The notes under the pieces were generated by a model. It was given only the letters and a program-made list of their open reading frames with translations, had not been told where the DNA came from and ran no database searches. This document shows, piece after piece, positions 1 through 37,070 of a stretch of 40,073 nucleotides of DNA. Source of the stretch: Paludibacteraceae bacterium (GTDB taxonomy: Bacteria > Bacteroidota > Bacteroidia > Bacteroidales > Paludibacteraceae). The position numbers and the translations under genes are program-made. How positions within the stretch are numbered: position 1 is the first letter of the stretch; every line of letters starts with the position of its first letter. The DNA is taken from the NCBI GenBank assembly GCA_024405875.1, contig JAKSOA010000015.1:1-40073 (forward strand). The letters are read 5' to 3'.

Positions 1-698
1 ATTTGCATCTTCGCGCCGGGCTGACGCAGTTGCTGCCAGCCGTCGGCGGTAATTTTCACAAGCTCTCCCGGACCCACAGAAGAGTCTATCTGATAGTCAA
101 GGTTAGGGAATGCGTTAGGTTCGACAGAGACAGACACACTGCCCTCCTTCTTGCCTATTATGACAGGAGTTCTGCCAAGTTTGTCTCTTACGGCAATGAT
201 ACCGTCCTCTGTAAGAATTAGCAGTGAGCAAGAGCCTTTAATGCGGTCAAACATAATTTGAACGCCCTCTTCTATTGTTTTTCCCTGACAAATAAGGGTT
301 GCAATAAGTTCTGTCTGGTTGGTCTTTCCTGAACTGAGTTCCGTAAAGTGATACCCCTTTTCAAGCAAATCCCGCTCTATCTCATCAATATTGTCAACGC
401 GCGCCACCGTCACAATGGCAAAGCGACCTAAATGTGAGTTGAGTATTATCGGCTGGGCGTCAGTGTCTGAAATTACCCCGATACCAGCGGTGGCACCCTC
501 AAACTTGCCGAGTCCGTCCTCAAATTTTGAACGGAAATAGGCACCCTCAATGTTGTGAATGGAGCGAGTCATACCCTTTACAGGTGAGTATGTAGCCATA
601 CCGGCTCTCTTTGTTCCAAGATGTGAATTATAATCTGTGCCGTAAAACAAATCCGCGACACAACTTGACTTTGAAATAGTCCCGAAAAAACCGCCCAT
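1..698 (-). CDS. PurF-type amidophosphoribosyltransferase homologue, N-terminal part (runs off the window)
   Basis: The visible 232 residues form an N-terminal nucleophile (class II glutamine amidotransferase) domain of the Bacteroidetes PurF type. It begins MGGFFGTISKSSC and has the conserved stretches DLFYGTDYNSHLGT, NSHLGRFAIVTVARV, SSGKTNQTEL and RDKLGRTPVIIGKKEG. PurF makes phosphoribosylamine from PRPP and glutamine, the first step of purine synthesis. The start ATG at 698 follows a perfect TAAATTTG -7 box at 730-723. Oddity: classical enzymes have the catalytic Cys directly after the initiator Met, but here that residue is Gly; the nearest Cys is residue 13. The C-terminal phosphoribosyltransferase half lies outside the window, so the exact role cannot be settled. 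From memory, Bacteroides homologues share this start. Confidence 0.85.
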   Translation of the reverse strand, partial: MGGFFGTISKSSCVADLFYGTDYNSHLGTKRAGMATYSPVKGMTRSIHNIEGAYFRSKFEDGLGKFEGATAGIGVISDTDAQPIILNSHLGRFAIVTVARVDNIDEIERDLLEKGYHFTELSSGKTNQTELIATLICQGKTIEEGVQIMFDRIKGSCSLLILTEDGIIAVRDKLGRTPVIIGKKEGSVSVSVEPNAFPNLDYQIDSSVGPGELVKITADGWQQLRQPGAKMQ

Positions 699-722
699 AG
701 ATGATGTGAAATTTTTGAGTTG

Positions 723-730
723 CAAATTTA
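723..730 (-). promoter_or_regulatory. Bacteroidetes -7 box (TAAATTTG) for the purF-like gene
   Basis: The minus strand reads TAAATTTG, a perfect match to the Bacteroidetes TAnnTTTG consensus, about 25 bp upstream of the ATG at 698. Confidence 0.6.
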
Positions 731-740
731 CAAAAAAAAG

Positions 741-768
741 TTGACAGTTGACCCTTGTCTCTTGTCCC
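741..768. repeat. Degenerate heptamer tract (4 units)
   Basis: Four consecutive 7-bp units, ttgacag, ttgaccc, ttgtctc and ttgtccc, lie between the divergent purF-like and lepA promoters. The same kind of 7-bp tract recurs in many intergenic gaps of this window (for example 2648-2797, 9725-9767, 12741-12838 and 23494-23611). Confidence 0.6.
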
Positions 769-776
769 TTTTTTTG

Positions 777-784
777 TACATTTG
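777..784 (+). promoter_or_regulatory. Bacteroidetes -7 box (TACATTTG) for lepA
   Basis: TACATTTG matches TAnnTTTG and lies about 65 bp upstream of the lepA ATG at 850. Confidence 0.5.
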
Positions 785-793
785 TACTTTTAA

Positions 794-841
794 AGATTTC
801 TCGCTACGCTCGAAATGACGGATGCTACGCTAGAAATGACG
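794..841. repeat. Repeat family C, two tandem half copies
   Basis: Two consecutive half-units end in cgctacgctcgaaatgacg and gctacgctagaaatgacg. They match the right half of the palindromic repeat at 4158-4228 (ttcgctaacgctcagaatgacg). This kind of GTCAT...ATGAC repeat is widely dispersed in Bacteroidetes genomes. It sits in the lepA 5' leader. Confidence 0.5.
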
Positions 842-849
842 AATGAGGT

Positions 850-2637
850 ATGAAACACATCAGGAATTTTTGCATTATAGCCCACATTGACCACGGGAAA
901 AGCACGCTGGCTGACCGCTTGCTTGAGGAGACGCGCACCGTGGTGGGCAAGGATATGCAGGAGCAGGTGCTTGATGATATGGATTTGGAGCGTGAGAGAG
1001 GCATAACCATCAAGAGCCACGCCATTCAGATGGACTACAATTATGGCGGTGAGGCTTACAAACTGAACTTGATTGACACTCCGGGACACGTGGATTTCAG
1101 TTATGAGGTATCCCGTTCCATAGCCGCCTGTGAGGGTGCTCTGCTTATAGTTGACGCCACACAAGGCATTCAGGCACAGACTATCTCAAACCTTTATATG
1201 GCTATTGAGAATGACCTTGAGGTTATTCCCGTTATGAACAAGATGGATATGGATAGCGCTATGCCCGATGAGGTTGAAGACCAGATAGTGGAACTGTTGG
1301 GCTGTAAGCGTGAGGAGATTATCAGGGCGAGCGGTAAGACAGGCTTGGGTGTGAAAGAGATTCTTGACGCCATAGTGGAGAGGATTCCAGCCCCTACAGG
1401 TGACCCCGACGCCCCGCTTCAATGCCTTATATTTGATTCCGTGTTCAACTCATTCCGTGGAATTATAACCTATATGAAGATTGTAAACGGCACCATTCAT
1501 ACAGGAGATTTAGTTAAGTTTGTGAATACAGGCAAGGAGTACAACGCTGATGAGATAGGTGTTCTGAAACTTGATATGGAGCCAAAGAGTGAATTGAAGT
1601 GCGGCGATGTAGGCTATATTATATCAGGAATCAAGACTGCGCGTGAGGTGCGTGTGGGTGATACCATTACTCACGTGGAGAGACCTTGCGAACGTGCGAT
1701 TGATGGTTTCCAAGAAGTTAAACCAATGGTATTCGCAGGCGTATATCCTATAGAATCTGAAGATTATGAGGATTTGCGCACATCTATGGAGAAACTGCAA
1801 CTCAATGACGCCGCGCTCACATTCTCACACGAATCAAGCGCCGCCTTGGGCTTCGGTTTCCGTTGCGGATTCTTGGGTATGCTCCATATGGAGATTGTGC
1901 AGGAGCGTCTGGACCGTGAGTTTAATATGGATGTCATAACAACCATACCGAACGTACAGTACCGCATATTCACAAAACAGGGTGATATGATTGAGGTGCA
2001 TAACCCATCTGGTATGCCAGACCCTACCCTGATTGACCATATTGAGGAGCCGTACATCAGGGCTTCAATCATTACTAAGACAGATTTCATAGGTCCAATA
2101 ATGACTCTCTGCCTTGGAAAGCGTGGTGAGTTGGTTAAGCAGGAGTACATTTCAGCAAACCGTATAGAGATTCTCTATGATATGCCTATGGGTGAGATTG
2201 TCTTTGACTTTTATGACAAATTAAAGTCAATATCAAAAGGTTACGCCTCATTTGACTATCATCTGAGCGGTTTCCGCCCCTCAAAATTGGTTAAACTTGA
2301 CATTCTTTTGAATGGTGAGAGTGTGGACGCATTGTCGTCTCTCACTCACGCCGATAACGCTGTAGCTATGGGCAGACGCATTTGTGAGAAACTTAAGGAT
2401 TTGATACCTCGTCAGCAGTTTGACATAGCCGTTCAGGCTGCCATCGGGGCAAAGATTATAGCACGTGAGACTATTAAGCAGGTTCGCAAAGACGTGCTTG
2501 CAAAGTGCTATGGCGGTGATATTACCCGCAAACGCAAACTGCTTGAGAAACAGAAGCGTGGCAAGAAGCGTATGAAACAGATTGGTAGCGTTGAGGTGCC
2601 GCAGAAGGCGTTTATGGAAGTGCTGAAATTGGACTAG
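850..2637 (+). CDS. lepA: Elongation factor 4 (LepA, ribosome back-translocating GTPase)
   Basis: This 595-residue protein is the normal length for LepA, a ribosome-bound translational GTPase thought to back-translocate or remodel stalled ribosomes. Near the N-terminus are the P-loop AHIDHGKS (about residues 11-18), the switch region [17 protein letters not shown] and the guanine-specificity motif NKMD. The diagnostic LepA C-terminal domain ends [19 protein letters not shown]...[14 protein letters not shown]. The start at ATG 850 gives the canonical [19 protein letters not shown] and follows a -7 box at 777-784. It stands alone in its transcription unit; the next gene follows after repeat element A. 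Confidence 0.98.
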
Positions 2638-2835: not shown

Positions 2836-4149
2836 ATGGAAATTCCCGGTTGGATGTTAATTCCGTTTGCAGTGATGCTGCTGTGCATTGCTGTTATCCC
2901 ACTGATGCCAAAGGCAGGAGAATGGTGGGAAAGCAACTTGCACAAGTTGTATGTGTCTTTAATTTTAGGTGTGCCTGTAGGCATTTGGATGTGCTGCAAT
3001 GGTGGCGGTCATGAGTTCCTACACACCGTAGTGTATGATTACATTCCTTTTATACTGTTGCTTATGGCTCTGTTTGTAACAACAGGCGGTATCAATATTA
3101 AAGGGGATTTGAAGGCTAAGCCTATAACTAACACAGGCATTATGGCTGTGGGTTGGGCTCTTGCCTCATTTATGGGAACCACCGGTGCCGCAATGCTTAT
3201 GATTAGGCCTATAATGAAAAACATTTCTGAGCGTAAGTATAAGACTCACACAATGTTATTCTTTATTGCAATAGTTGCCAACTGCGGTGGTCTGCTCTCC
3301 CCTCTTGGTGACCCACCGCTATTCCTGCTCTTCCAAAAGGGTGCTCCATTTACTTGGTGGTTGCAGAATATGATTGGAGAATGGCTTGTAACAGGTCTGC
3401 TTCTGCTTATTGTATATTTTATAGTTGACACCTATTATTATAAGAAAGAGCCTAAATGTTGCATCGAGGCTGACGAAAAGAATTATGAGAAGATGAGTAT
3501 CGGGGGATACATTAACATATTCTGGCTGCTTTGCGTAATTGCCAGCACTATGTTCATTAACTCAACTTATATTCCTGCAATGGGTGCTGAAAACGCACCT
3601 TGGTATCTGAGACTGCTAAGAGAATGGGTATTCATTCTTATTATTTTAGGGTCTTGGTTCACTACTAAGAGACAGATTAGAATTGACAACAACTACTCCT
3701 GGACCCCAATTCTTGAGGTTGCGTGCGTGTTTGTAGGTATTTTTGCCACGATGGCTCCAGCATTGCTTTATCTTGGCAGTGAGTCAGTAAGCGCCGCCAT
3801 TGCTAAAGTTATTGAGGCTCCTTGGCAGTATGTTTACAGCACCGGTCTGCTCAGTTCATTCCTTGACAACGCTCCTACCGCTATGGTGTTCAACTCTATG
3901 GCTGTGGGTGCCGGGCATATTTCTGACATTGCCGCTGGTCTTGCCAACGATGAGTACCTTAAAGCCATATCTATGGGTGCGGTATTCTTTGGTTCAATGA
4001 CTTACATTGGCAACGGTCCTAACTTTATGGTTAAGTCCATTGCAGAGCAGAACAAGATTGATATGCCATCGTTCTTTGGCTATATGATTAAATTCTCTTT
4101 GGTAGTATTGCTACCTATATTTATTATAACGCAGTTGATATTTATTTAA
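2836..4149 (+). CDS. Sodium:proton antiporter, NhaD type (ion transporter superfamily)
   Basis: This 437-residue polytopic membrane protein has about 10-12 hydrophobic segments. It carries the motif ANCGGLLSPLGDPPLFLL (about residues 149-166), typical of NhaD/ArsB-type ion transporters, and a second half-motif SSFLDNAPTAMVF (about residues 337-349). By family it should export Na+ or Li+ in exchange for protons at the inner membrane. The start at ATG 2836 puts a first membrane helix at IPFAVMLLCIAVIPL. No TAnnTTTG box is visible just upstream, so it may depend on read-through from lepA or on a promoter in element A. A role as an anion (citrate or arsenite-like) transporter cannot be excluded by eye. 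Confidence 0.85.
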   Translation: MEIPGWMLIPFAVMLLCIAVIPLMPKAGEWWESNLHKLYVSLILGVPVGIWMCCNGGGHEFLHTVVYDYIPFILLLMALFVTTGGINIKGDLKAKPITNTGIMAVGWALASFMGTTGAAMLMIRPIMKNISERKYKTHTMLFFIAIVANCGGLLSPLGDPPLFLLFQKGAPFTWWLQNMIGEWLVTGLLLLIVYFIVDTYYYKKEPKCCIEADEKNYEKMSIGGYINIFWLLCVIASTMFINSTYIPAMGAENAPWYLRLLREWVFILIILGSWFTTKRQIRIDNNYSWTPILEVACVFVGIFATMAPALLYLGSESVSAAIAKVIEAPWQYVYSTGLLSSFLDNAPTAMVFNSMAVGAGHISDIAAGLANDEYLKAISMGAVFFGSMTYIGNGPNFMVKSIAEQNKIDMPSFFGYMIKFSLVVLLPIFIITQLIFI

Positions 4150-4157
4150 CAAACACA

Positions 4158-4228: not shown

Positions 4229-4238
4229 GAATGAAATT

Positions 4239-5582
4239 ATGGAACTAAATAATTTAACAGCAGTCTCCCCCATTGACGGGAGGTATCGTGGTAAGACAGA
4301 GCCTCTTGCTGAGTATTACTCTGAGTATGCACTGATTAGATACAGAGTAAAAGTTGAGGTTGAGTATTTCATCGCTCTTTGTGAGAAACCTGTGCCTCAA
4401 CTTAAAGGCATTGACAAATGTGTTTTTGAGAAGTTGCGTGCAATCTATAAGAACTTCTCTCTTACTGACGCTCAAACGGTTAAGGATACTGAGAAAATAA
4501 CTAACCACGATGTCAAGGCGGTGGAATATTTCCTTAAAGGCAAGTTTGATGAGATGGGTTTGGAGCAGTACAAGGAGTTCATTCACTTTGGACTGACTTC
4601 TCAGGATATAAACAACACCTCTATTCCAATGGCAGTCAAAGACAGTTTGAATGAGTGCTATATTCCTGCTCTTCAAGGTCTTATTGACAAACTTAACGGT
4701 TTTGCAGAGGATTGGAAAAACATTCCTATGCTTGCAAAGACTCACGGTCAGCCCGCCTCTCCTACCCGTCTTGGTAAGGAGATAAAGGTGTTTGCGTATC
4801 GTCTTGAAGAACAACTTGCACTACTAAAAAGTGCTCCTGTATCCGCTAAGTTTGGCGGTGCCACAGGTAACTATAACGCTCACCACGTTGCCTATCCTGC
4901 TGATGATTGGAAGGCATTTGGCAATAAGTTTGTCAGTGAGTATCTTGGCTTGCAGCGTGAACAATGGACCACTCAAATTTCAAATTATGATAACTTGGCA
5001 TCGGTGTTTGACGCCTTAAAGAGAATCAACTCCATAATTATGGATTTGGACCGTGACTTCTGGACATACATCTCTATGGAGTACTTCAAGCAGACCATTA
5101 AGGCTGGTGAGGTTGGCTCTTCCGCTATGCCTCACAAGGTAAATCCTATTGACTTTGAGAACTCAGAGGGTAACTTGGGCATATCCACTGCCATTCTTGA
5201 GCATCTTGCCCACAAACTGCCTGTTTCCCGTTTGCAAAGAGATTTGACAGACTCTACTGTTATAAGGAACATCGGGGTACCTATGGGACACTCCCTTATT
5301 GCCATTGCAAGCACTATGAAGGGGCTTGGCAAACTTATTCTGAATGAGGCTGTTATAAAAGAGGATTTGGAGAACTGCTGGAATGTGGTGGCAGAGGCAA
5401 TTCAAACCATTCTACGCCGTGAGGGTTATCCAAAACCATACGAGACTCTGAAGGCTCTCACCCGCACTAACGTTGCCGTTACAGAGGCTTCAATCCACGA
5501 ATTCATTCAAACACTGAATGTTTCAGATGCAGTCAAAGCGGAACTGATGCAAATCACTCCATACAACTACACTGGGTTATAA
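4239..5582 (+). CDS. purB: Adenylosuccinate lyase
   Basis: The 447-residue enzyme belongs to the fumarase/aspartase superfamily. It removes fumarate from SAICAR and adenylosuccinate, acting twice in purine synthesis. The superfamily signature SSAMPHKVNPIDFENSEGN lies at about residues 294-312, with the catalytic serine in the SSAMPHKVNP loop. FGLTSQDINNT (about residues 127-137) and TRLGKEIKVFAYRL mark the other active-site regions. The start MELNNLTAVSPIDGRY is the standard PurB N-terminus. It lies 89 bp after the antiporter, separated by a family C repeat, and ends at a strong terminator. Confidence 0.98.
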   Translation: MELNNLTAVSPIDGRYRGKTEPLAEYYSEYALIRYRVKVEVEYFIALCEKPVPQLKGIDKCVFEKLRAIYKNFSLTDAQTVKDTEKITNHDVKAVEYFLKGKFDEMGLEQYKEFIHFGLTSQDINNTSIPMAVKDSLNECYIPALQGLIDKLNGFAEDWKNIPMLAKTHGQPASPTRLGKEIKVFAYRLEEQLALLKSAPVSAKFGGATGNYNAHHVAYPADDWKAFGNKFVSEYLGLQREQWTTQISNYDNLASVFDALKRINSIIMDLDRDFWTYISMEYFKQTIKAGEVGSSAMPHKVNPIDFENSEGNLGISTAILEHLAHKLPVSRLQRDLTDSTVIRNIGVPMGHSLIAIASTMKGLGKLILNEAVIKEDLENCWNVVAEAIQTILRREGYPKPYETLKALTRTNVAVTEASIHEFIQTLNVSDAVKAELMQITPYNYTGL

Positions 5583-7000: not shown

Positions 7001-7656
7001 TACAACCCAGGGTTGGATTCAAGGGCGTTTCCAATTACCACGATGTCTGCTCCGGCTGTGTAGGCGGATTGCAGGGCTTCAGGGGTACGGATACCACCGC
7101 CTACTATAAGGGGTATTGAAATAGAAGATTTGACGGCTGAAATTACAGCATCGGGGATACGGTTAAGCGCTCCACTACCCGCTTCAAGATAGATGTACTG
7201 CATACCAAGAAGTTGACCTGCGTATGCGGTATTTTTTATGGTCTCAATATCTGATGGCTCTATTGGTTCTGTGCCGCTTACCCGTTGTACGGCACTCTCC
7301 TTGCCTCCATCTACTAAAATATAGCCTACAGGCACAACCTTCAGGCTTGTACCTTTTAGTTTTGCCGCTGCCTTTACGTGTGAGCCTATAAGGTATTCAG
7401 GATTTCTGCCTGATAGCAGGGAGATGAACATTAGTGCATCTGCTTTCTGAGATATTTGAGAGACATTGCCGGGAAAAATCACCACAGGAGCATTGACTTT
7501 GGCTTTCAAATCCTTAATCAAAGATTCCATTGCCGCACCTGTGCTACCACCCACAAGAACATAGTCAGGAGGGGTCTCAGACATATAATTAACAAGAAGG
7601 TTAGTCTTTGAACTAACCTTCTCCGGATCTATTAGTATTGCTAATTTCTTCTGCAT
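6979..7656 (-). CDS. Geranylgeranylglyceryl phosphate synthase family protein (GGGPS/PcrB-like)
   Basis: This 225-residue TIM-barrel prenyltransferase homologue begins KLAILIDPEK and shows DYVLVGGSTG, APVVIFPGN, YIYLEAGSGA and the phosphate-binding end IPLIVGGGIRTPEAL plus GADIVVIGNALE. The family joins a polyprenyl diphosphate to sn-glycerol-1-phosphate. In Bacteroidetes, group II GGGPS homologues are common, but the lipid product in vivo is not well defined. It is the last gene of a likely DUF4301-glgB-GGGPS minus-strand unit, 54 bp after glgB, with a family C repeat in the gap. The start MQKKLAIL at 7656 is the only good candidate. Confidence 0.9.
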   Translation of the reverse strand: MQKKLAILIDPEKVSSKTNLLVNYMSETPPDYVLVGGSTGAAMESLIKDLKAKVNAPVVIFPGNVSQISQKADALMFISLLSGRNPEYLIGSHVKAAAKLKGTSLKVVPVGYILVDGGKESAVQRVSGTEPIEPSDIETIKNTAYAGQLLGMQYIYLEAGSGALNRIPDAVISAVKSSISIPLIVGGGIRTPEALQSAYTAGADIVVIGNALESNPGLYHSITHL

Positions 7657-7710: not shown

Positions 7711-9714
7711 TCAATTGATCTTCCTGAGCACAAACGCTGAGCGTGAAGGAATGTAGAGTTTAATCCACTCCTTGTCAAGATACCCTTCTGCCGGCATTGT
7801 GAAGTGGTGAACGGTCTTGTCATTCAAGCCGAAACCACCATATTTTGGGTCATCGGTGTCAAGAATCATCTCATATTCACCTGGTGTTACAAGCATACCG
7901 TAATCTGTATATGAGTTGAATGGGTGGAAGTTGAAGATGAATAGCAGGTCATCACGCCCGTAGGCTATAACCTGGTCTCCTGAGTTATCCCAATATTTGT
8001 AGAACGGAAGTTCCTGATATTTCTTACGACCTGTAATAAGGTGAATCATATCCTTGTCAAAGTCCCCCAAAGGCTTGTACATATAGTTTGGATTATCTAC
8101 AAGGTCCCACTGACGGCGTGCGTATTTGTATGACCAGCCGTTTCCTTCACGTGGGAAATCAATCCACTCAGGATGACCGAACTCATTACCCATAAAGTTA
8201 AGGTAACCACCGTTTATTGTTGATGCGGTGAGCAGACGTATCATCTTATGAAGCGCCACGCCACGGTCTGCAAGGTATGTTGTGTGTCCCTTTTCAAAGT
8301 GCCAATACATATCAGCGTCAACAAGGCGGAAGATTATTGTCTTATCTCCCACGAGGGCTTGGTCATGAGACTCCGCGTAACTTATGGTCTTCTCATCTTG
8401 ACGACGGTTTGTGAGTTCCCAGAAGAGGTGTCCCGGTTTCCAGTTCTCATCTGTATATTCCTTAATATATTTAATCCACAAATCAGGTATTCCCATAGCC
8501 ATACGATAGTCAAAGCCTATGCCACCTTCCTCAAATTTAGAGGCAAGTCCGGGCATTCCGCTCATCTCCTCAGCAATGGTTATCGCATTTGGATTAACCT
8601 GATGTATAAGTTTATTTGCAAGTGTAAGGTAACAGATGGCGTCACCGTCCTGATTTATGTTATAGTAGTCTGAATAACCACTGAACGCCTCTCCAAGACC
8701 GTGGCTCAGATAAAGCATTGATGTTACGCCGTCAAAACGGAATCCGTCAAACTGATACTCGTCAAGCCAGAACTTGCAGTTTGAAAGCAGGAAGTGAAGC
8801 ACCTCATTCTTTCCATAGTTGAAACAGAGTGAATCCCAAGCCGGGTGTTCACGGCGTCCGCCATCGTGGAAGTACTGGTAAGGTGTGCCGTCAAAGCGTC
8901 CAAGTCCCTCAACCTCATTCTTAACTGCGTGTGAATGAACTATATCCATAATTACAGCAATACCCATTGAGTGTGCTGTGTCTATTAACTCCTTTAACTC
9001 CTCAGGTGTGCCGAAACGTGATGAAGCCCCGAAGAAACTTGATACGTGGTATCCGAATGAGCCGTAATACGGGTGCTCCTGAATAGCCATAATCTGTATG
9101 CAGTTATATCCGTCGGCCTTTACACGTGGAAGTACCTCATCTTTAAACTCTATGTATGTACCCACCTTCTCCTTTGCCGTAGCCATTCCAATATGACACT
9201 CATAGATTGCAAGAGGGTCTCTGTTCGGCTTGAAGTTCTTGCACTTGAATGTATATGGTTTCTCTGGTGACCATACCTGTGCTGAGAATATCTTGGTGTT
9301 GTCATCTTGAACCACTCTGCGGCACCAAGCAGGTATGCGTTCCCCCTCACCGCCTGGCCAGCGTACAACAAACTTATAGAGTTGACCGTGCTGGAAAGCC
9401 TTTTCCGGGAATTTTCCTTCAAACACGCCGTTCTCAAGTTTCTTGAGTTTGTAATCCTCACTTATCTGCCAATTATTGAAATCACCCTTTACATATATTT
9501 CTGTGGCATTTGGTGCCCACTCTCTTATTACCCACGAGTCTGAAAGGTGATGCATTCCGAAATATAAATACCCTGATGCAAAATCAGAGAGGGTTGTCTT
9601 ACCGTTGTTGGTCAGTTCAGCCTCCTTACTTAGGGCGTAGTTATAACGTCCTTCAATTGCTGATGTGAATGGCTGTAGCCAAGGGTCATTCTGAATAAGT
9701 TTCAATGAGGTCAT
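7711..9714 (-). CDS. glgB: 1,4-alpha-glucan branching enzyme, GH13 (eukaryote-like GlgB)
   Basis: The 667-residue enzyme makes alpha-1,6 branches in glycogen. An N-terminal CBM48 (about residues 55-150, YVKGDFNNWQ) precedes the GH13 barrel. The catalytic Asp nucleophile is D328 in FDGFRFDGV, the acid/base is in AEEMSG (E382/E383), and the transition-state Asp is in ESHDQ (D451). The conserved second-shell motif IVHSHAVKN is also present. The length and lack of the long N-terminal extension fit the GBE1-like branch common in Bacteroidetes. The gene follows DUF4301 by 51 bp without its own TAnnTTTG box, so both are probably co-transcribed. Its start lies directly after a heptamer tract. Confidence 0.97.
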   Translation of the reverse strand: MTSLKLIQNDPWLQPFTSAIEGRYNYALSKEAELTNNGKTTLSDFASGYLYFGMHHLSDSWVIREWAPNATEIYVKGDFNNWQISEDYKLKKLENGVFEGKFPEKAFQHGQLYKFVVRWPGGEGERIPAWCRRVVQDDNTKIFSAQVWSPEKPYTFKCKNFKPNRDPLAIYECHIGMATAKEKVGTYIEFKDEVLPRVKADGYNCIQIMAIQEHPYYGSFGYHVSSFFGASSRFGTPEELKELIDTAHSMGIAVIMDIVHSHAVKNEVEGLGRFDGTPYQYFHDGGRREHPAWDSLCFNYGKNEVLHFLLSNCKFWLDEYQFDGFRFDGVTSMLYLSHGLGEAFSGYSDYYNINQDGDAICYLTLANKLIHQVNPNAITIAEEMSGMPGLASKFEEGGIGFDYRMAMGIPDLWIKYIKEYTDENWKPGHLFWELTNRRQDEKTISYAESHDQALVGDKTIIFRLVDADMYWHFEKGHTTYLADRGVALHKMIRLLTASTINGGYLNFMGNEFGHPEWIDFPREGNGWSYKYARRQWDLVDNPNYMYKPLGDFDKDMIHLITGRKKYQELPFYKYWDNSGDQVIAYGRDDLLFIFNFHPFNSYTDYGMLVTPGEYEMILDTDDPKYGGFGLNDKTVHHFTMPAEGYLDKEWIKLYIPSRSAFVLRKIN

Positions 9715-11415: not shown

Positions 11416-11483
11416 CATTTTAGCACTCAAAAATGCTATTTTCAATCATTTTCATACATCGTGGTGTAATATGTTTGCAATAA

Positions 11484-17742: not shown

Positions 17743-18050
17743 AAAAAAAGCGGGACTCGCATTGTTGCTCGTTCCGCATTTCGAGGCTCTAGCATCGCCC
17801 AGTCATTGAGAAGAGCAACGCAGAAAGCCCACGCCGTATGTAAGGCATCGTGGCAAATTACCACGATTGCATATACACACCCCGAAGCTATCCGAGTTGC
17901 CTTGTCTTGCAATGACTTTTGAAAGTTGCTAGATTCCGAAATGTCAAGAACAAAGCGTCGTCAGACGCAAATAATATGTCTTAGAGGTATTCCTACCTCA
18001 ATATTTAAAACCCACCCATCCGCTCTGTATATGAGCTATGGCGTGGTTTT
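17743..18050 (-). ncRNA. Candidate structured RNA (leader or standalone) upstream of the GT2 operon
   Basis: No credible protein is encoded in this 300-nt stretch, but many helices are compatible with one fold. Nested stems are 937-943/777-783 (CGAAATG/CATTTCG), 927-933/788-794, 910-917/801-808 (8 bp), 896-900/815-819, 874-880/836-842 and 861-867/847-853, all numbers plus 17,000. Two local hairpins lie towards the 5' end: GAGGTA/TACCTC (17984-17989/17994-17999) and GCGTC/GACGC (17955-17959/17964-17968). The transcript would begin near 18050 after a perfect -7 box and reach a seven-T run at 17749-17743, 38 bp before the GT2 start. I do not recognise it as RNase P, tmRNA, SRP or 6S RNA. Confidence 0.65.
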
Positions 18051-27212: not shown

Positions 27213-28480
27213 TTTTTTATTAATTCAGCCACTTTGCCGCACAGTGTGCGTCGGCTGTAGGCTTCGGCTGTCTTACGGTTTGTTTGATTTATATGCCAAT
27301 TTGGGTTAAGAGTCAGACTCTCTACCACTTTTGTTATATATTCAGCTATTTTCTTGGACTCACCAAATGCGAATACACCTTCTTGTTCATACTTATTCAA
27401 TATATTCGCTGCGTCGCCATCTTTAAAGCAGATAGCAAGCACAGGTTTCCCCGATGCCATATATTCAAAAAGTTTTCCGGTAACAATTCCTTTATTTTCA
27501 GCCTGATTTGGAAGCAATAACAGCAATAAATCAGAACTGCACATATACTCTATTGCCTCTGAGTGCGGAACGTAGTGGACAGTGGACAGTTGACAGTTGA
27601 CAGTGGACAGTGATTCTTGTAGTTTTGAAGGAATTGTGCCACCTACAAATTGCAAATGGATTTTGCTCTGAACATCGGGGCTGAGAAGTTTGAGAGCGTT
27701 TACAAATGTCTCTGTCTCATACTGCGGAGCTAATGAGCCTATATAACTAATGGTGATGCGGTGATGCGGTGATGCGGTGTCCCTTGTCCCTTGACCCTTA
27801 TTTTGAGACAGAGTCTCAAAATCAACCTCATCATAGCCATTGGGAATCAAGTGTATCGGGAGCGGTTTGCTGGTTTTGGACTGGAAGTTACGAACACACT
27901 CACCACTTACGGTAATTATTTCATCGGCGGTTTCCAATACCTTGCGTTCAAGACGGGCGTTATACCACTTTGCAAGAGAGGTCTGATACAAATCCTTATT
28001 GAAATAGATATCTGTCCAAGGGTCTCTTAAATCTGCTATCCACTTGATATTAGGATATTTACGTTTGAGTTTAAGTCCTATAAGTTGTGTTGAGTGCGGA
28101 GGGCTTGTAGTAACTACCGCATCAATATGTTCTGATTCTATAAGTTTGCAAGCCTCTTTAAAGGCATACTTGTTCCACCCTCTTCTTGGGTCGGGCAAAA
28201 AAAAGTTGCCGCGTATGAATCTGGCTATTTTCTGCCCAATAGTAGGATTCTTTTCATTTGCAAAACCCGTATGTGGCAACTCCCCTGTAGGAGAGACCTT
28301 TTTATATAGTGACAAGACTTCACTAGTGCGGGTTTTAAAAACCCTGAGATCTGACGGCACATCTGCCATCAGGCTCTCATCTATCTGCGGATATGAGGCA
28401 TACCTTTCATCTACGGTAATAACCATAGGTTTCACACCGTTCTCCGGCAAATATTTGCAGAACTTCAGCCACCTCTGCAC
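27209..28480 (-). CDS. Glycosyltransferase family 4 with in-frame short tandem repeats; start codon problematic
   Basis: The GT-B protein shows TTSPPHSTQLIGLKLKRKYP, WIADLRDPWTD, the donor-domain start ISYIGSLAPQYETE and ENKGIVTGKLFEYMASGKP (EX7E-like). The first canonical start is GTG at 28480 (423 residues), but this would cut the conserved N-terminal strand and glycine loop. The frame stays open upstream and encodes NLLVITYYFPPSGGAG, the usual GT4 start, with ATC at 28531-28529 exactly where ATG is expected. Two repeat tracts encode low-complexity insertions (27752-27800 and 27576-27612). A single 7-bp gain or loss in them would shift the frame. Expression may be off, phase-variable, or dependent on a rare start codon. 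Confidence 0.8.
   Translation of the reverse strand: MQRWLKFCKYLPENGVKPMVITVDERYASYPQIDESLMADVPSDLRVFKTRTSEVLSLYKKVSPTGELPHTGFANEKNPTIGQKIARFIRGNFFLPDPRRGWNKYAFKEACKLIESEHIDAVVTTSPPHSTQLIGLKLKRKYPNIKWIADLRDPWTDIYFNKDLYQTSLAKWYNARLERKVLETADEIITVSGECVRNFQSKTSKPLPIHLIPNGYDEVDFETLSQNKGQGTRDTASPHHRITISYIGSLAPQYETETFVNALKLLSPDVQSKIHLQFVGGTIPSKLQESLSTVNCQLSTVHYVPHSEAIEYMCSSDLLLLLLPNQAENKGIVTGKLFEYMASGKPVLAICFKDGDAANILNKYEQEGVFAFGESKKIAEYITKVVESLTLNPNWHINQTNRKTAEAYSRRTLCGKVAELIKK
27576..27612. repeat. Heptamer tract inside a glycosyltransferase gene
   Basis: About five 7-bp units, tggacag, tggacag, ttgacag, ttgacag and tggacag, lie inside the minus-strand GT4 gene. They encode STVNCQLSTVH, which breaks the usual linker before HYVPHSEAIEYM. 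These units are the same type as the intergenic heptamers at 741-768. Confidence 0.65.
27752..27800. repeat. Octamer plus heptamer tract inside a glycosyltransferase gene
   Basis: Three copies of an 8-bp unit (gtgatgcg) are followed by tcccttg, tcccttg and accctta heptamers. The tract encodes NKGQGTRDTASPHHR just before the donor-binding domain. Confidence 0.65.
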
Positions 28481-28798: not shown

Positions 28799-30985
28799 AT
28801 GAATAGTCTTAGATTTGATGCAGTTAAGGAGGCTTTCAACCGTAAGGCGGTTAAACCGGAAGCGCATAATGAACTTACATCGGAGTACTTTGGAAAGAAT
28901 GTCTTTGACATTCAGAAGATGAAGGGATACCTTCAGCAAAGTACAGTACAGGCTATTCAAGACAGTATTACAAACGGAACCACCCTTGACCGCAACCTTG
29001 CCGACGAGGTTGCCTCTGGTATGATGAAATGGGCTATTGAGATGGGGGCGACGCACTACACTCACTGGTTCCAGCCGCTTACTGAGGGTACTGCGGAAAA
29101 ACACGACTCCTTTATTGAGTATGGTGGCAAGGGTGTCATTGAGCAGTTCTCAGGAAAAATGCTGGTGCAGCAGGAGTCTGACGCTTCAAGTTTCCCTAAC
29201 GGTGGCATAAGAAATACATTTGAGGCTCGTGGATACACCGCTTGGGATACCTCAAGTCCCGCCTTCGTGGTTGAGGACACGCTTTGTATCCCCACTATCT
29301 TTATTTCATATACGGGTGAGTCTCTGGACTACAAGACACCTCTCTTAAAAGCCATTCAAGCGGTAGATAAGGCAGCCACCGATGTCTGTAAATATTTTAA
29401 CCCCGATGTAAGAAAGGTTAGCACATATCTGGGTTGGGAGCAGGAGTATTTCTTAGTTGATGAGAGCCTCTACGCCGCCCGTCCTGACCTTATGCTTACT
29501 GACCGTACTCTTATGGGACATGAGAGTGCAAAGAACCAACAACTTGAGGACCACTACTTTGGCGCCATACCAGCACGCGTCACTGCGTTTATGCAAGATG
29601 TTGAGACTGAAGCATATAAATTTGGAATCCCGCTAAAGACACGCCATAATGAGGTGGCTCCGAATCAGTTTGAATTCGCTCCAATCTACGGAGAGGCGAA
29701 CCTTGCCAATGACCAGAACCAACTTATTATGACACTTATGAAGAAAATTGCCTCAAAGCACCACTTCCGTGTCTTGCTTCACGAGAAACCTTTTGCAGGT
29801 GTCAATGGCTCCGGCAAGCACAATAACTGGTCACTTGGTACCGATACAGGCATCGGTCTGTTCACACCTGGCAAGAATGACACAAAGAACCTCCAATTCA
29901 TCACATTCCTTGTAAATGTGTTGATGGCGGTTTACAAGAACAACGCACTTTTAAAGGCATCTGTTATGACTGCTCAGAATGAGCATCGTTTAGGTGCCCA
30001 CGAGGCTCCGCCTGCCATTATTTCAGTTTTTCTTGGCAGTCAGATTTCCCAAATTCTTGACCATCTTGAAGATGACTCTATGGGCGATGAGATTACACTT
30101 AAAGGTAAACGGCAGATGCGGCTCGGCATCTCCAATGTGCCGGAGGTGTTGCTTGACAATACAGACCGCAACCGCACGTCTCCATTCGCATTTACAGGTA
30201 ACCGTTTTGAGTTCCGTGCCGTTGGCTCTTCCGCAAACTGTGCCAGCGCCATTATAGCCCTCAATTCCGTTGTGGCCGCTCAACTTACTGAATTTAAGGC
30301 ATCTGTAGATTACCTGATAAGTCAGGGAACGAGCAAAGAGAGTGCCATTCTAAAAATTGTAAAACAATATATTAAGGAGTCCAAGCCTATCCGTTTTGAC
30401 GGTAACGGCTACGGCGATGCCTGGAAAGAGGAGGCAAAGAAGCGTGGACTTGACTGTAACGGAAGCACGCCTGAAATTATAGACGCATATACGTCTGAAC
30501 AAAGTCTGAAGATTTTTGAGGATATGCACATCTTCACCCGTAAAGAGGTAGAGGCTCGCAATGAGGTTAAATGGGAGGTCTATTCAAAGAAAATTCAGAT
30601 AGAGTCTCGTGTGCTGTGTGACCTTGCTATGAACCACATAATTCCTGTTGCATCTCAATATCAATCACTCTTACTGGAAAAGGTTGCGAGAATGCAGTCT
30701 GTATTCCCATCCGAAGAAGCGGCTGTATTATCAGAACAAGATATGGACCTTATACGCAACATTGCCGCACACATACAACTTATTAAGCGTGAGAGTGATG
30801 AGATGGTGGAGGCTCGCAAGGTTGCCAACGGACTCACTGATGGCCGTGAGAAGGCGATATCCTACCATAATAATGTTCTACCCTATCTTGGCTCTATAAG
30901 AAATGCCATTGACGCACTTGAACTTGTGGTGGATGACGGTATGTGGAGTCTGCCTAAATACAGGGAGTTGCTGTTTATAAGATAA
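28799..30985 (+). CDS. glnN: Glutamine synthetase type III
   Basis: The 728-residue protein is a GSIII enzyme, the large form typical of Bacteroidetes and cyanobacteria, which makes glutamine from glutamate, ammonia and ATP. It has the GSIII N-terminal block (YFGKNVFDIQKMKGYL), THYTHWFQPLT, LGWEQEYFLVD (metal-binding glutamates), RHNEVAPNQFEFAP, GSGKHNNWSLGTDTG (glutamate and ammonium site) and NRTSPFAFTGNRFEFRAVGSSANCA. The length matches the family. It has its own promoter and a hairpin-rich leader. The 3' end overlaps the convergent AsnB-like gene by 11 bp. Confidence 0.97.
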   Translation: MNSLRFDAVKEAFNRKAVKPEAHNELTSEYFGKNVFDIQKMKGYLQQSTVQAIQDSITNGTTLDRNLADEVASGMMKWAIEMGATHYTHWFQPLTEGTAEKHDSFIEYGGKGVIEQFSGKMLVQQESDASSFPNGGIRNTFEARGYTAWDTSSPAFVVEDTLCIPTIFISYTGESLDYKTPLLKAIQAVDKAATDVCKYFNPDVRKVSTYLGWEQEYFLVDESLYAARPDLMLTDRTLMGHESAKNQQLEDHYFGAIPARVTAFMQDVETEAYKFGIPLKTRHNEVAPNQFEFAPIYGEANLANDQNQLIMTLMKKIASKHHFRVLLHEKPFAGVNGSGKHNNWSLGTDTGIGLFTPGKNDTKNLQFITFLVNVLMAVYKNNALLKASVMTAQNEHRLGAHEAPPAIISVFLGSQISQILDHLEDDSMGDEITLKGKRQMRLGISNVPEVLLDNTDRNRTSPFAFTGNRFEFRAVGSSANCASAIIALNSVVAAQLTEFKASVDYLISQGTSKESAILKIVKQYIKESKPIRFDGNGYGDAWKEEAKKRGLDCNGSTPEIIDAYTSEQSLKIFEDMHIFTRKEVEARNEVKWEVYSKKIQIESRVLCDLAMNHIIPVASQYQSLLLEKVARMQSVFPSEEAAVLSEQDMDLIRNIAAHIQLIKRESDEMVEARKVANGLTDGREKAISYHNNVLPYLGSIRNAIDALELVVDDGMWSLPKYRELLFIR

Positions 30986-32290: not shown

Positions 32291-33523
32291 TTAATTCCTA
32301 ATTTTCCAAAGACTGATTTCCTTATCTATTCTGCAAGATTCAGAGTAGCAAGGCAACCAAATAACCTCACTCTCCTGTTTTATCAGTTCATTCATAATGG
32401 AGTCAAAATCGTGTATTACGCAAACATCTGATTTTGAGAAGCCACTCTTATACAAATGGCCTTCCCATACCTCAGCACAAGTTCCCGTAACATATATTTT
32501 TTCTATAAACTTGCTCTCACTTAGTTTTTTCAGATTCACTTTTGCCACCCAAGCGGTATCCATATCGTCAGGAATCTCCGCCGCCTGCGCTATTACAATT
32601 CTTACAGGTTCTGTCAATGTTGATATATACTCTATGGAAGCGTCAAATGATGCTACATTCTTAGCCAAAATGGTACGCATAGAGACACCACCTATTTTCA
32701 TAGTCTCCATTCTGGATGGGCAGGGCTGCACATTTTCTAACATTGAGGCACAACTTGCCATATCTTTTCTGTACAGACTGCATGCACATAACGCCGCCAT
32801 TGCATTATATGCATTATAACTACCTGGGAATGCCAATTTTACACTAAATTCACCATTTTCTGACCGCAATGAGAATCTCTGTCCCTCTCCTTCGGCTTTA
32901 GATATTCCGTTCCAACTGAGCCTTAGTTTCCCCGATGTTTCAGACTCCTTTCCAAAGAGCAATGCTGTGTTGGTGCATTTTTCGGCTAATGTCATAGTCA
33001 ATTCATCGCTAGCATTAAGACATAGAACGCTGTCCGGCGTAGTGGCAATGGCTGTGACTATACGGTCTCTTACATACTCAACAGACGGGAACCGGCTTAC
33101 TTGGTCTTCTGAAATGTTTGTAACCACAATTACATCTGGTTTTATTGATTTGAAAAGAACAGGCGTGTAATCCTCATCACACTCTATAACGGCATATTTC
33201 CACTTAGGGTCACCGTTTTTAATAAAATTCCAAACCACGCTTTGAGGCAGATTGACACCTGTTATTGATTTCATTACAGCATCGGGGTACCAATGCTCCA
33301 AAATTGAACGTATAAAATGTGTGGTTGTAGTTTTGCCGTTTGTACCTGTAACACATATACATTTCACATCAGAGGTAAGAACTGATAAGATATCGGGGCA
33401 TAGTTTAAGTGCAATAAAACCGGGTAACGCCTCACCGTTTTTACCCAATAATTTCAGTACCCAATTGGTTAATTTAGCCAAAAGGATAGCGATTCTATGT
33501 CTTATCTGAAGTTTTTTATTCAT
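32291..33523 (-). CDS. MurT-like Mur ligase family protein
   Basis: The 410-residue protein matches MurT, the catalytic subunit of lipid II isoglutaminyl synthase, better than MurC-F or FolC. It has an N-terminal amphipathic region LAKLTNWVLKLLGKNGEALPG, the P-loop VTGTNGKTTTTHF (58-70), the Mur acidic motif VIECDEDYTPVLF, VVTNISEDQVSRF, FPGSYNAYNAMAA and a C-terminal DUF1727-type end (CPSRMETMKIGG, RTILAKNVASFDASIEYI). Missing are the four-Cys zinc ribbon of Gram-positive MurT and, apparently, the Asp of the DVSWIWD-type motif (here DTAWVAK, 322-328) that serves GatD. No gatD lies in the window. It overlaps mtgA by 1 bp. Confidence 0.8.
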   Translation of the reverse strand: MNKKLQIRHRIAILLAKLTNWVLKLLGKNGEALPGFIALKLCPDILSVLTSDVKCICVTGTNGKTTTTHFIRSILEHWYPDAVMKSITGVNLPQSVVWNFIKNGDPKWKYAVIECDEDYTPVLFKSIKPDVIVVTNISEDQVSRFPSVEYVRDRIVTAIATTPDSVLCLNASDELTMTLAEKCTNTALLFGKESETSGKLRLSWNGISKAEGEGQRFSLRSENGEFSVKLAFPGSYNAYNAMAALCACSLYRKDMASCASMLENVQPCPSRMETMKIGGVSMRTILAKNVASFDASIEYISTLTEPVRIVIAQAAEIPDDMDTAWVAKVNLKKLSESKFIEKIYVTGTCAEVWEGHLYKSGFSKSDVCVIHDFDSIMNELIKQESEVIWLPCYSESCRIDKEISLWKIRN

Positions 33524-34131: not shown

Positions 34132-34831
34132 AATTTTCTCTAATGAATTTAACAAGTGCGACTGTATCCAGTCTGTTTTGAATCGGGGTTATATTGTAAT
34201 CATATATATTAAAGAGACTCTCTTTCTTGGCTATATGTATCTTTCTGACTGTATCTGTTACAATATATACATTTTCAGGTGGAAGAATCCATTGGGCGGC
34301 TGTATCTATAAGACCGTATAAGGAGTCATCGCCGGCAACTATCAAGGCTCCGCCCCTAAAAGTCATTTCCACTTCATTTCTATAGTGTATATGCGATGAT
34401 GGTACTACAGAACCGTCTCTCCTGTATATTGTAATACTGTCTCCTATAGACATTACGCCTCTGTCACCCAAAAACGCCCAAGCCTTATCACCTGATATGT
34501 CTGTAAGCAGTTCACCTGTGTTTATATTGAAATATGCACGCTTATTATACTTTGCCAATATAGCCAGCGTGTCAAAATCTTCAACGTATATCCAATCTAT
34601 AGAGTCAATCTTGACCTCTCCGGTACTTATATCATACAAAAAATTTAATGAATCACGTTTATAATACATATCGCCTGACCCGATATGTGTTCCATATCTG
34701 TCAAGTGATATTCTCTTTTTGGAAAGTTGTATTGTTCCAACTATATCAATGGCAAAAAACACAACCATAGTGGCGGCGATAAAGATAACCGCCCATTGCC
34801 AAAAAGACAATCCTGATTTAAATTTTGACAT
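34121..34831 (-). CDS. Membrane-anchored WG-repeat-like protein
   Basis: This 236-residue protein of unknown function has one transmembrane helix near the N-terminus (WAVIFIAATMVVFFAIDIVGTI, about residues 13-34) and an extracytoplasmic part of short beta-rich repeats. The segment YGLIDTAAQWILPPENVYIV (about residues 180-199) resembles a WG (KWG) repeat. Less regular repeats such as YFNINTGELLTDISG precede it. It overlaps mltG by 1 bp and mtgA by 11 bp, so translation is probably coupled. By position it may be a scaffold or regulator for the transglycosylases on the periplasmic side (inference). Confidence 0.65.
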   Translation of the reverse strand: MSKFKSGLSFWQWAVIFIAATMVVFFAIDIVGTIQLSKKRISLDRYGTHIGSGDMYYKRDSLNFLYDISTGEVKIDSIDWIYVEDFDTLAILAKYNKRAYFNINTGELLTDISGDKAWAFLGDRGVMSIGDSITIYRRDGSVVPSSHIHYRNEVEMTFRGGALIVAGDDSLYGLIDTAAQWILPPENVYIVTDTVRKIHIAKKESLFNIYDYNITPIQNRLDTVALVKFIRENYAE

Positions 34832-35916
34832 TATTTGATACCTTTCTTATTTAAATTCTTTTGATATTTTCTGGCATACCGACTATGTTGCCGGAATGTT
34901 GTGGAATAATCATGAGTGCCGGAAAAGTCAGACTTGGCACACATATAATAGTAATTATGGCGCTCATAATTAAGCACAGCATCAATAGCCCTCTCTGATG
35001 GTATGCGGATAGGACCAGGTGGCAACCCCTGATATTTATATGTGTTATACGGCGAGTCTATCTCCAGATGAGCCTTCAACACCCTTTTTATGGAGAAATC
35101 TCCCCACGCATAACGGACCGTAGGGCAAGATTGCAACGGCATACCTTTTCTAATTCGGTTCATATAGACACCAGCCACCATACGGCGGTCATCGTAGTCA
35201 TTTGTCTCCTCCTCAACTATTGACGCAAGAATAGTAACCTGAATGGGAGTTAGTCCAATCTCATTGCACTTTGCAAGACGTTCCGCATTCCAGAATTTAT
35301 TGTATTCATCAGCCACTGTCCTTGCAACATCATCCGCTGTGGAGCACCAGCAGACATCACGCTTAAAACGCACAAACATAGCCAGAGATGACGCCTCCGT
35401 CAGTCCGAACTTACGCAGAGTTGTATCTGCCGTAAAAGCCTTATAAAGCGACGCCGAATCCACATCCAACTGACGTGACAGATTCCTTGCCACCCAACGG
35501 GTGTATCGTGTCATCTTAACCTCCATAGGCACTTTATTTGAAAGTCCGTAAGCCACCCTGTTAATGAAAGAGCGGTTTGAAATGCCCGGCTCAAGTGAAT
35601 AAAATCCGCACTGAGGCTCCTTCCCCTTTGCAAAAAGCATTATCGCGTGGTCAAACTCCATCTCATTACGAATTAAACTCTTAGACATCAGAGAATCCTT
35701 CACACTATCCCAAGTTGCATTTTTAAGTACATAAAAGTTCCTGTACTTACCACCCTCACAGTTAATGTTGGCACGCCACAGAATATCATAAGCCAGCACT
35801 GCCCCGATGGCAATCACAGCCACGGCGGCAAAAATAATCAGCATATACTTAAGTGCTGGTTTATCCTGTTTTTTTCCACTTTTGGTATTAGAACCTTTAT
35901 TTTTCAAATTTTTCAC
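34831..35916 (-). CDS. mltG: Endolytic murein transglycosylase
   Basis: This protein of about 361 residues has a short basic cytoplasmic tail, one membrane helix (YMLIIFAAVAVIAIGAVLAYDIL) and a YceG/MltG domain. It cuts nascent glycan strands and sets their length. The catalytic Glu lies in the ILASIVEEETNDYDDRRMVAGVYMNR block, followed by SPYNTYKYQGLPPGPIRIPS, the family signature. A TTG at 35937 would extend the frame by 7 codons but lies inside the -7 box TAGATTTG (35942-35935). I therefore start at GTG 35916, about 14 nt after the expected transcription start. It heads the operon mltG-WG-mtgA-MurT-like-AsnB-like. Confidence 0.92.
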   Translation of the reverse strand: MKNLKNKGSNTKSGKKQDKPALKYMLIIFAAVAVIAIGAVLAYDILWRANINCEGGKYRNFYVLKNATWDSVKDSLMSKSLIRNEMEFDHAIMLFAKGKEPQCGFYSLEPGISNRSFINRVAYGLSNKVPMEVKMTRYTRWVARNLSRQLDVDSASLYKAFTADTTLRKFGLTEASSLAMFVRFKRDVCWCSTADDVARTVADEYNKFWNAERLAKCNEIGLTPIQVTILASIVEEETNDYDDRRMVAGVYMNRIRKGMPLQSCPTVRYAWGDFSIKRVLKAHLEIDSPYNTYKYQGLPPGPIRIPSERAIDAVLNYERHNYYYMCAKSDFSGTHDYSTTFRQHSRYARKYQKNLNKKGIK

Positions 35917-35934
35917 AATAAAATTTTCAAATCT

Positions 35935-35942
35935 CAAATCTA
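35935..35942 (-). promoter_or_regulatory. -7 box (TAGATTTG) of the mltG operon
   Basis: The minus strand reads TAGATTTG, a perfect TAnnTTTG. It lies five bases from the divergent tRNA-Ser -7 box, so the two promoters overlap. Confidence 0.6.
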
Positions 35943-35947
35943 TTGAC

Positions 35948-35955
35948 TAAATTTG
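35948..35955 (+). promoter_or_regulatory. -7 box (TAAATTTG) for tRNA-Ser
   Basis: TAAATTTG lies 43 bp before the first base of the tRNA and is divergent from the mltG promoter. Confidence 0.55.
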
Positions 35956-35998
35956 CACTCGCAAAATTAATAAAAGTTTTGCAATTTTCAGCACAAAA

Positions 35999-36085
35999 GG
36001 AAGGATGGGTGAGTGGCTGAAACCACCAGTTTGCTAAACTGACGTACGGGTTACCGTACCGGGGGTTCGAATCCCCCTCCTTCCG
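35999..36085 (+). tRNA. tRNA-Ser (anticodon GCU)
   Basis: This 87-nt tRNA has the acceptor stem GGAAGGA (35999-36005) pairing with TCCTTCC (36078-36084), discriminator G at 36085, and anticodon stem-loop CAGTTTGCTAAACTG with GCT at 36033-36035. A long variable arm (acgtacgggttaccgtacc region) is typical of class II serine tRNAs, and the T-loop is GGTTCGAATCC. The CCA end is not encoded. It reads AGU/AGC serine codons. A rho-independent terminator follows at 36104-36131. Confidence 0.97.
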
Positions 36086-36219
36086 CAAGCGGTTGATTAG
36101 CAGGAGAACACGAAAGTGTTCTCTTTTTTTATTGTGAGTATGCGTTGGGAGTTTACTCACAAAAGCATATACACAATAAAAAATAGGAGGCATTCGCCTC
36201 CTGCTAATCAACCGCTTGC
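36085..36219. repeat. Palindromic element with 22-bp perfect terminal inverted repeats at the tRNA 3' end
   Basis: The first 22 bp (36085-36106, beginning gcaagcggttgattagcag) are exactly complementary to the last 22 bp (36198-36219). Inside are nested dyads: GAACAC/GTGTTC followed by T7, TTGTGAGTA/TACTCACAA, and AGGAGGC/GCCTCCT next to the right arm. No protein is encoded. The left end coincides with the discriminator base of tRNA-Ser, which suggests a small mobile or tRNA-targeting element. Confidence 0.65.
36104..36131 (+). terminator. Rho-independent terminator of tRNA-Ser
   Basis: GAGAACAC-gaaa-GTGTTCTC forms an 8-bp stem with a GAAA loop followed by seven Ts. It lies about 20 nt after the tRNA. 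Confidence 0.75.
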
Positions 36220-36239
36220 AAGGATGCCTGCGGCAGCAT

Positions 36240-36345
36240 TTGGGGATCACGGAGCGAAGCGACGTAATCCCCCTCCTTGCAGGGAACCCCGCCGGAAGGA
36301 AGGGGTTCACGAGCATCTTTAGATGCGAGTAATCCCCTACACCAT
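36240..36345. repeat. Repeat family D, copy 1, with hairpins
   Basis: The direct-repeat part at 36253-36300 (agcgaagcgacgtaatcccc, then cctccttgcagggaacccc) reappears at 37717-37760. Hairpins include GGGGATcACG/CGTaATCCCC around agcgaagc, and GCATCTttAGATGC in the second half. The copies sit on either side of the AbiE pair. Confidence 0.6.
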
Positions 36346-36368
36346 CTCCATGAGTGGCATAGTGAATT

Positions 36369-37070
36369 TTATACTACAAGTGGTACCGCTTGGAAGATAT
36401 GTAGTAAGGAGATAGTCTCTTGACGCAATTTTGTGTGTACAAAATTTTTCATCTTTCCATCCAATAATTCGCCTAAACCTACGTGCATCTGCTTGTCATT
36501 TAGGGCTTCAAGCCTATTTATGCAGTCTTGAATATAGTCTGTCAACGGTTTACCCATTCTTTCTTCAACTATTGATGAGTTGATAGGTGTATGATTTTCT
36601 AAGAAGAACCAACAATCAAAAACATCGCGGTTTGTAGTTTCTGCTCTGTCTAATAAAGCACATAACTTGTGTGCAAACATATCAGAGGCAGACATTACGT
36701 TAACATTGATACCCAACAATGAACGCAATTCATAATGGTTTTGATTCTGAAACACTCTGTTTGAGATTTCTACCTTTAAGTTTCGTTCACCAGCACCATA
36801 GTCCAGCACAATGATAGGACCATAAAATTTACGTTCAGCATCAATGATACGTCCGTACTTAAGCAGAATTGTCTGCACTCGCTCATATACCAGTTGCTCT
36901 TTCTCTTTATCAAGCAAATTAAAGTCCAAATCAACGGAAAATCGGGGCAAATTATAGAAAAACATCAGAGCGGTTCCACCCTTAAAACCTAACAGACTAC
37001 TCAAGTCTTTATCGTTGTAAATATCTTTCAATATTTGCAACATATAGTATTTGTGTTGGTTAACGTTCAT
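36369..37070 (-). CDS. AbiEii-type nucleotidyltransferase toxin
   Basis: The 233-residue protein has the nucleotidyltransferase signature of the AbiEii/DUF1814 family: FKGGTALMFFYNLPRFSVDLDFNLL (about residues 29-53), containing GG-TA and the R-S-DLDF metal-binding aspartates. LKVEISNRVF (third acidic residue), MSASDMFAHKLCALLDRAETTNRDVFDCWFFL and the C-terminal helices are also typical. The family acts as toxin of type IV toxin-antitoxin systems and in phage abortive infection, by modifying tRNA or other nucleotides. It overlaps the AbiEi gene by 4 bp. Confidence 0.85.
   Translation of the reverse strand: MNVNQHKYYMLQILKDIYNDKDLSSLLGFKGGTALMFFYNLPRFSVDLDFNLLDKEKEQLVYERVQTILLKYGRIIDAERKFYGPIIVLDYGAGERNLKVEISNRVFQNQNHYELRSLLGINVNVMSASDMFAHKLCALLDRAETTNRDVFDCWFFLENHTPINSSIVEERMGKPLTDYIQDCINRLEALNDKQMHVGLGELLDGKMKNFVHTKLRQETISLLHIFQAVPLVV

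Follow-up and report, generated by a model that had tools for sequence, protein, structure and literature searches.

CATCG(G/T)GG(T), a putative DNA uptake sequence with lineage-specific spellings in a Paludibacteraceae genome

What kind of signal is the word ATCGGGG, which is repeated on both strands along a 40,073-nt stretch of DNA (the window, meaning the whole stretch analysed) from a Paludibacteraceae bacterium? The window belongs to a metagenome-assembled genome (MAG; G000) of 1.85 Mb in 38 contigs, 78.7% complete. A preliminary description had counted 32 copies of the word, 20 on the plus and 12 on the minus strand, and had proposed a DNA-level signal such as an uptake sequence or Chi. 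The analysis reported here points to an extended form of the word, CATCG(G/T)GG(T), as a putative DNA uptake sequence, which we regard as the probable explanation.

All 32 copies, with the same strand distribution, were recovered by searching both strands of the window, against a mean of 2.07 and a maximum of 6 across 100 dinucleotide shuffles. The neighbouring words are scarce, as had been described, with two copies of GTCGGGG and six of TTCGGGG (about five in the first count). A preference for flanking C and T had led to the suggestion of a longer consensus, and this preference holds, C preceding 23 of the 32 copies (22 originally) and T following 18, although the core is better written as CATCG(G/T)GG(T), which is the best word. 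The nine-letter form CATCGGGGT is found 13 times (0.17 expected), and a second form that had been overlooked, ATCGTGG, 14 times (2.78 expected).

The excess extends over the genome and is not confined to the window: the whole MAG has 865 copies of ATCGGGG (424 plus, 441 minus) and 90 of the reversed word (42 and 48), and 303 copies of CATCGGGGT (154 and 149) against 9 (4 and 5) of its reverse. The window was combined with twenty 20-kb stretches of contigs C1-C6, a non-random choice of low-numbered contigs, to form a 440 kb sample. Under third-order statistics CATCGGGG occurs in this sample 157 times against 3.9 expected and CATCGTGG 73 times against 6.5; G stands three bases upstream of ATCGGGG in 102 of 194 cases and T follows in 104 of 194.

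A codon control has been carried out by shuffling synonymous codons within each gene, 40 times, in 391 heuristically called open reading frames (ORFs) that cover 92% of the sample. The codon-corrected count, named in the preliminary description as one that could refute the claim, leaves the excess standing, with 183 copies of ATCGGGG in ORFs against a mean of 17.3 (maximum 28). For CATCGGGG the figures are 146 against 6.3 (largest 10), about 23-fold, and for CATCGTGG 66 against 9.1. The 195 copies of ATCGGGG in the sample divide into 90 in sense and 93 in antisense orientation, with 12 lying outside ORFs, and the use of several reading frames, most commonly Ile-Gly, Ser-Gly and Pro-Asp, was rightly noted at the outset. 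The synonymous shuffles, the multiple frames and the balance of sense and antisense copies together support a signal at the DNA level. An origin of the word in codon pairs or protein sequence was ruled out by the same shuffles, and an intergenic regulatory or terminator element by the location of the sites, only 11 of the 157 copies of CATCGGGG being outside ORFs. Amino-acid identity at motif codons was 175/240 (73%) against a background of 79%, which is suggestive of a cost to the proteins.

The synonymous-shuffle screen was applied to 19 genomes, 16 of the same genus and 3 of other genera, with samples of 100-440 kb in the six genomes that carry a signal and of about 29-140 kb in the remaining 13. 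The signal was found in 6 of the 16 genus genomes, and its spelling varies: CATCGKGG in G000, YATCGGGK in G137 and G141, GYATCGGNG (N mostly G, A or T) in G007 and CATCGGNG in G040 and G123. Nothing comparable appeared in the samples of the other 13 genomes, where there were faint hints in G149 (CATCGGC, 28 against 8.5; CATCGGG, 10 against 2.8) and in G025 (CATCGGGG, 6 against 1.3); weaker words also exceeded the shuffles in screened genomes. The six genomes differ in how often each of eight spellings occurs (chi-square 366, 35 degrees of freedom, p 1e-56). Sister genomes are alike (G137/G141, p 0.13; G040/G123, p 0.36), and the four non-sister pairs tested are strongly different (p 8e-8 or less).

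The best LeuS match to the window protein was 90-91% identical in G137, G141, G040 and G007 and 74-82% identical in the other ten genomes; LeuS was not found in G123. In a midpoint-rooted single-gene tree of LeuS from 13 of the 16 genus genomes and four other Bacteroidales, a branch (100/100) separates the five signal genomes included from all other rows, Candidatus Aphodosoma falls among the genus rows and G115 is set apart. The corresponding ComEC tree (12 of the 16 genomes, three long branches flagged) places all six signal genomes together (99/99), with G040 and G123 as one pair and G141 and G137 as another. The signal marks a single cluster of relatives, and its dialects are congruent with their phylogeny. 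No comparable word was found in 70 loci of at least 10 kb, out of 80 named loci around leuS, where about 20 kb per locus gives little power; the highest CATCGGG counts among them were 12 against 4.2 (L169) and 9 against 2.4 (L138).

In a codon-based comparison, which replaces a blastn comparison (4/35 kept) and in which a site can enter the count for more than one genome, the exact word is kept at 15 of 80 alignable sites of G000: 6/23 in G137, 3/15 in G141, 6/25 in G007, 0/9 in G040 and 0/8 in G123. Retention was therefore 15/63 in the first three genomes and 0/17 in the last two, control 7-mers being kept at 12-15%. Individual sites are thus gained and lost, some of them persisting between genomes that use the same spelling.

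The coldest stretch of the sample is a Mu-like prophage of about 35 kb (C1, about 104.7-139.9 kb). It encodes Mu-type transposase and transposition ATPase proteins together with terminase, portal, sheath, tape measure and amidase, and PHROG matches were obtained for nine of the ten prophage proteins scanned. Only 2 copies of ATCGKGG are present, against 27.2 expected on the basis of the remaining sample; the Poisson p of 6e-10 is after the fact, because the region was chosen for being cold.

Two further loci were observed at the prophage edge in stretch L006 of contig C1. A diversity-generating retroelement-like locus (3161-4672 and 6481-6568) has a reverse transcriptase gene (3161-4456, minus strand) adjoining a pair of 88-nt repeats that are 89% identical. 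All ten differences fall at plus-strand T (minus-strand A) of the copy at 4585-4672, and the other copy lies within the first third of the ORF at 4975-6921 (minus strand). Directly beside the prophage region (about 400-2723) there is an array of clustered regularly interspaced short palindromic repeats (CRISPR) with adjacent cas2 and cas1 genes, in which a 24-mer occurs 13 times, the repeat being about 47 nt by eye.

Strand symmetry has been analysed by assigning each contig or stretch an unknown orientation, as a stand-in for replication direction in a MAG with no mapped origin. In G000 the best one-strand fraction was 0.5 for ATCGKGG (interval to 0.57) and 0.535 for ATCGGGG alone (to 0.635). 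When the six signal genomes were pooled (637 sites, 61 stretches) the best value was again 0.5, with an interval to 0.57, a fraction of 0.65 being worse by 12 log units and one of 0.75 by 48. Single genomes also gave 0.5, except G137 (0.56), with upper limits of 0.59-0.70. The uptake option of the preliminary description is favoured because this symmetry is accompanied by prophage depletion and by dialects that follow the lineage.

Among the alternatives, the one that survives best is a binding site for a nucleoid or repair protein, or a hyper-iterated word with some other use, such as the cyanobacterial HIP1, unrelated to uptake. Density, location in coding sequences and strand symmetry would all fit it, but the divergence of spelling between lineages, the retention of 15 sites in 80 and the scarcity in the prophage fit a tag of self DNA better, and HIP1 is palindromic; we consider this explanation unlikely. 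Even less likely is a Chi-like recombination hotspot, in which the word would stop a nuclease of the AddAB/RecBCD type and mark self DNA for repair. The word is, like the Chi octamers, short, G-rich (here at its 3' end) and scarce in a prophage, and G000 encodes an AddA-like protein with UvrD helicase and PD-(D/E)XK nuclease domains (L017:8054-11146). Chi is, however, characterised by a leading-strand excess, and the FtsK-orienting KOPS by a strong strand polarity, unlike the symmetric distribution found here, which disfavours the Chi option first raised and led us to reject both Chi and KOPS as the best reading. The 90/93 division between sense and antisense copies and a codon-matched excess above the level of known Chi sites also argue against it. 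That the word is a by-product, whether of methylation, of codon pairs or of mutation bias, is very improbable. The excess of weaker words over the shuffles speaks for it; against it stand 146 copies of CATCGGGG where shuffles give 6.3, the use of the word in sense, antisense and several frames, and a 20-fold 8-mer excess with spellings that differ between near relatives, hard to obtain through mutation bias.

Genes for competence proteins are present, as the preliminary description had proposed to check. A ComEC domain was found in 12 of the 16 genus genomes, a DprA domain in 13 and a ComEA-like HHH domain in 16, G000 being included in each case. An HHH-domain protein of about 640 amino acids occurs in 14 of the 16, and its gene is located within 3 kb of dprA on the same contig in all 13 genomes in which dprA was found. 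The locus beside dprA is at L225:16387-19126 in G040 and C12:68624-70543 in G000. The long HHH protein is 55-67% identical to the G040 copy in G000, G141, G007 and G123, and 26-42% identical in the other nine genomes. Only HHH (residues 62-123) is above the Pfam cut-off, and the remainder reads, to our eye and not as the output of a tool, as an outer-membrane barrel with a signal peptide, aromatic strand ends and a final F. A 269-amino-acid neighbour beside dprA, seen in G040, had no Pfam match.

Two established systems offer a comparison. ComP of the Neisseriaceae and the predicted receptor of the Pasteurellaceae are type IV minor pilins, and the Haemophilus influenzae uptake signal sequence (USS) has about 1,470 copies, to be compared with the 865 copies of the 7-mer in 1.85 Mb here. 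In a 2025 article only two families, Neisseriaceae and Pasteurellaceae, are described as known to discriminate (PMC12616744), and the DNA uptake sequence (DUS) of the Neisseriaceae is read by the minor pilin ComP (PMC3630211, PMC3868556). The word resembles DUS in being short, non-palindromic and present in many copies, with a common core and dialects that follow phylogeny (PMC3630211), and USS in its similar density as well as in its location mostly within genes and its dialects in one family (PMC12616744). It differs from DUS in that word and phylum are unrelated, no type IV pilus ATPase was found over the cut-off and there is no excess outside ORFs, and from USS in word, phylum, machinery and the absence of an excess of close pairs. 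Within the Bacteroidota, competition experiments indicate a preference for own DNA in Riemerella columbina; the raw k-mers of that study, in the portion consulted, gave A/T-rich runs only, unlike the codon-controlled word and dialects described here (PMC7965970). In its sister species R. anatipestifer, ComEC, DprA, ComF and RecA are essential for transformation, together with four newly found proteins, of which one carries an HHH domain and another is placed in the outer membrane (PMC8459023). No such word for Bacteroidota was met in the titles and abstract openings of the literature searched, a body that leaves out most subscription papers. The word would work like an uptake sequence, yet we do not place it within the DUS or USS systems, because their pilus machinery was not found and their extragenic and paired arrangement is missing.

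Several observations weigh against an uptake sequence. Known uptake systems show enrichment outside genes and inverted pairs that act as terminators. Here the small share of CATCGGGG outside ORFs, set beside an ORF coverage of 92%, is no excess, close pairs are at chance level (14 against 14.7 expected) and there is a single terminator-like inverted pair (L003:12992-13018). The type II/IV secretion ATPase of the PilB/PilT type (PF00437) was over the cut-off in none of the 16 genus genomes (78-100% complete), with two weak matches, in a search that did not extend to pilins. Genus members that lack the signal likewise have ComEC, DprA and the long HHH protein, which means that their presence singles out none of the three as the reader of the word. 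In raw counts, ATCGGGG exceeds the reversed word not only in G040 (357/91) and G123 (321/90) but also in G145 (219/40) and G096 (151/33). The reversed-word control is biased by composition, and by this measure G040 and G123 cannot be told apart from some other members of the genus; relatives were therefore judged by the shuffles. In these G145 has 7 copies against 7.0, and the shuffles attribute raw excess of this type to composition and codons; the pattern of presence and absence consequently depends on sample shuffles, some of 29-60 kb. Core and accessory genes, compared by tblastn, showed no clear difference in their density of ATCGGGG (0.39 to 0.60 per kb across identity classes, 0.43 in genes without a match), so that the argument from depletion in mobile DNA comes from the prophage, the one mobile element examined, and word density varies among other stretches too. 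The organism is an uncultured gut Bacteroidales known here from its MAG.

If CATCG(G/T)GG(T) acts as an uptake sequence, this lineage would have a surface receptor with a preference for DNA that bears the word. DNA of kin would then be taken up and recombined more often, and copies would spread where proteins tolerate the word. The preference of the receptor would drift, and the spelling with it, lineage by lineage, giving rise to the dialects. Both the reading of the word by a receptor and uptake as the process are inferred from these patterns. The fast-diverging HHH protein encoded beside dprA is proposed as an uptake candidate, and our guess for the route, which would involve no type IV pilus, leads from this protein of about 640 amino acids to ComEC and on to DprA and RecA.

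The window itself is ordinary chromosome, with lepA, purB, folC, leuS, genes for a monofunctional transglycosylase and several glycosyltransferases, and mltG. On the plus strand, word search placed ATCGGGG at 2443..2449 (within lepA), 3499..3505, 7150..7156, 13450..13456, 13707..13713, 14441..14447 (within folC), 22467..22473 (within leuS), 25502..25508, 27674..27680, 33392..33398, 34182..34188 and 36941..36947, and on the minus strand at 476..482, 14900..14906 (within folC), 20301..20307, 26849..26855, 27449..27455, 32930..32936 and 35802..35808. The remaining copies form part of CATCGGGGT, located on the plus strand at 5270..5278 (within purB), 9912..9920, 10110..10118, 15319..15327 (within folC), 16798..16806, 20408..20416, 23704..23712 and 33280..33288, and on the minus strand at 10392..10400, 11118..11126, 14271..14279 (within folC), 22843..22851 (within leuS) and 29400..29408. 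The second form, ATCGTGG, is found on the plus strand at 4285..4291, 8863..8869, 11458..11464, 17847..17853 and 26934..26940, and on the minus strand at 3746..3752, 4505..4511, 7038..7044, 10780..10786, 15630..15636, 17861..17867 (an inverted pair with 17847), 20582..20588, 21923..21929 and 25187..25193.

Tandem repeats of other sequence were also observed. Two of them, at 27574-27612 (7 nt, 5.6 copies) and 27752-27779 (8 nt, 3.5 copies), lie in a glycosyltransferase-like ORF (27209-28480), in which phase variation is possible. Arrays of 7 nt are located between ORFs of the window (2649-2694, 9735-9768 and 12798-12835), A/T-rich 7-nt arrays of the TTAATTATTAATT type are present in 10 of the 20 stretches of the same genome, and a 7-nt tandem unit (GTTAGGA rotations) ranks with the most over-represented words of the non-signal genomes G131 (L031-L035), G064 (L041-L045) and G149 (L046-L050). 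A tRNA-Ser (gct) gene at 35999-36086 overlaps an ORF called on the opposite strand (35927-36316).

We tentatively suggest, with slightly less than even confidence, a third and independent origin of uptake sequences, in Bacteroidota without a type IV pilus. An outer-membrane system encoded next to dprA, which combines HHH with a fast-diverging barrel, would read the word at the cell surface. If this is true, the HHH-barrel system would supply the step at the outer membrane that is still missing from natural transformation in Bacteroidota. A codon-controlled Bacteroidales word with dialects would be a third case, of separate origin and apparently without type IV pili. It would imply that uncultured gut bacteria undergo natural transformation and exchange genes in a self-sorted manner, and the existence of four spellings means that the receptor may be found by co-variation.

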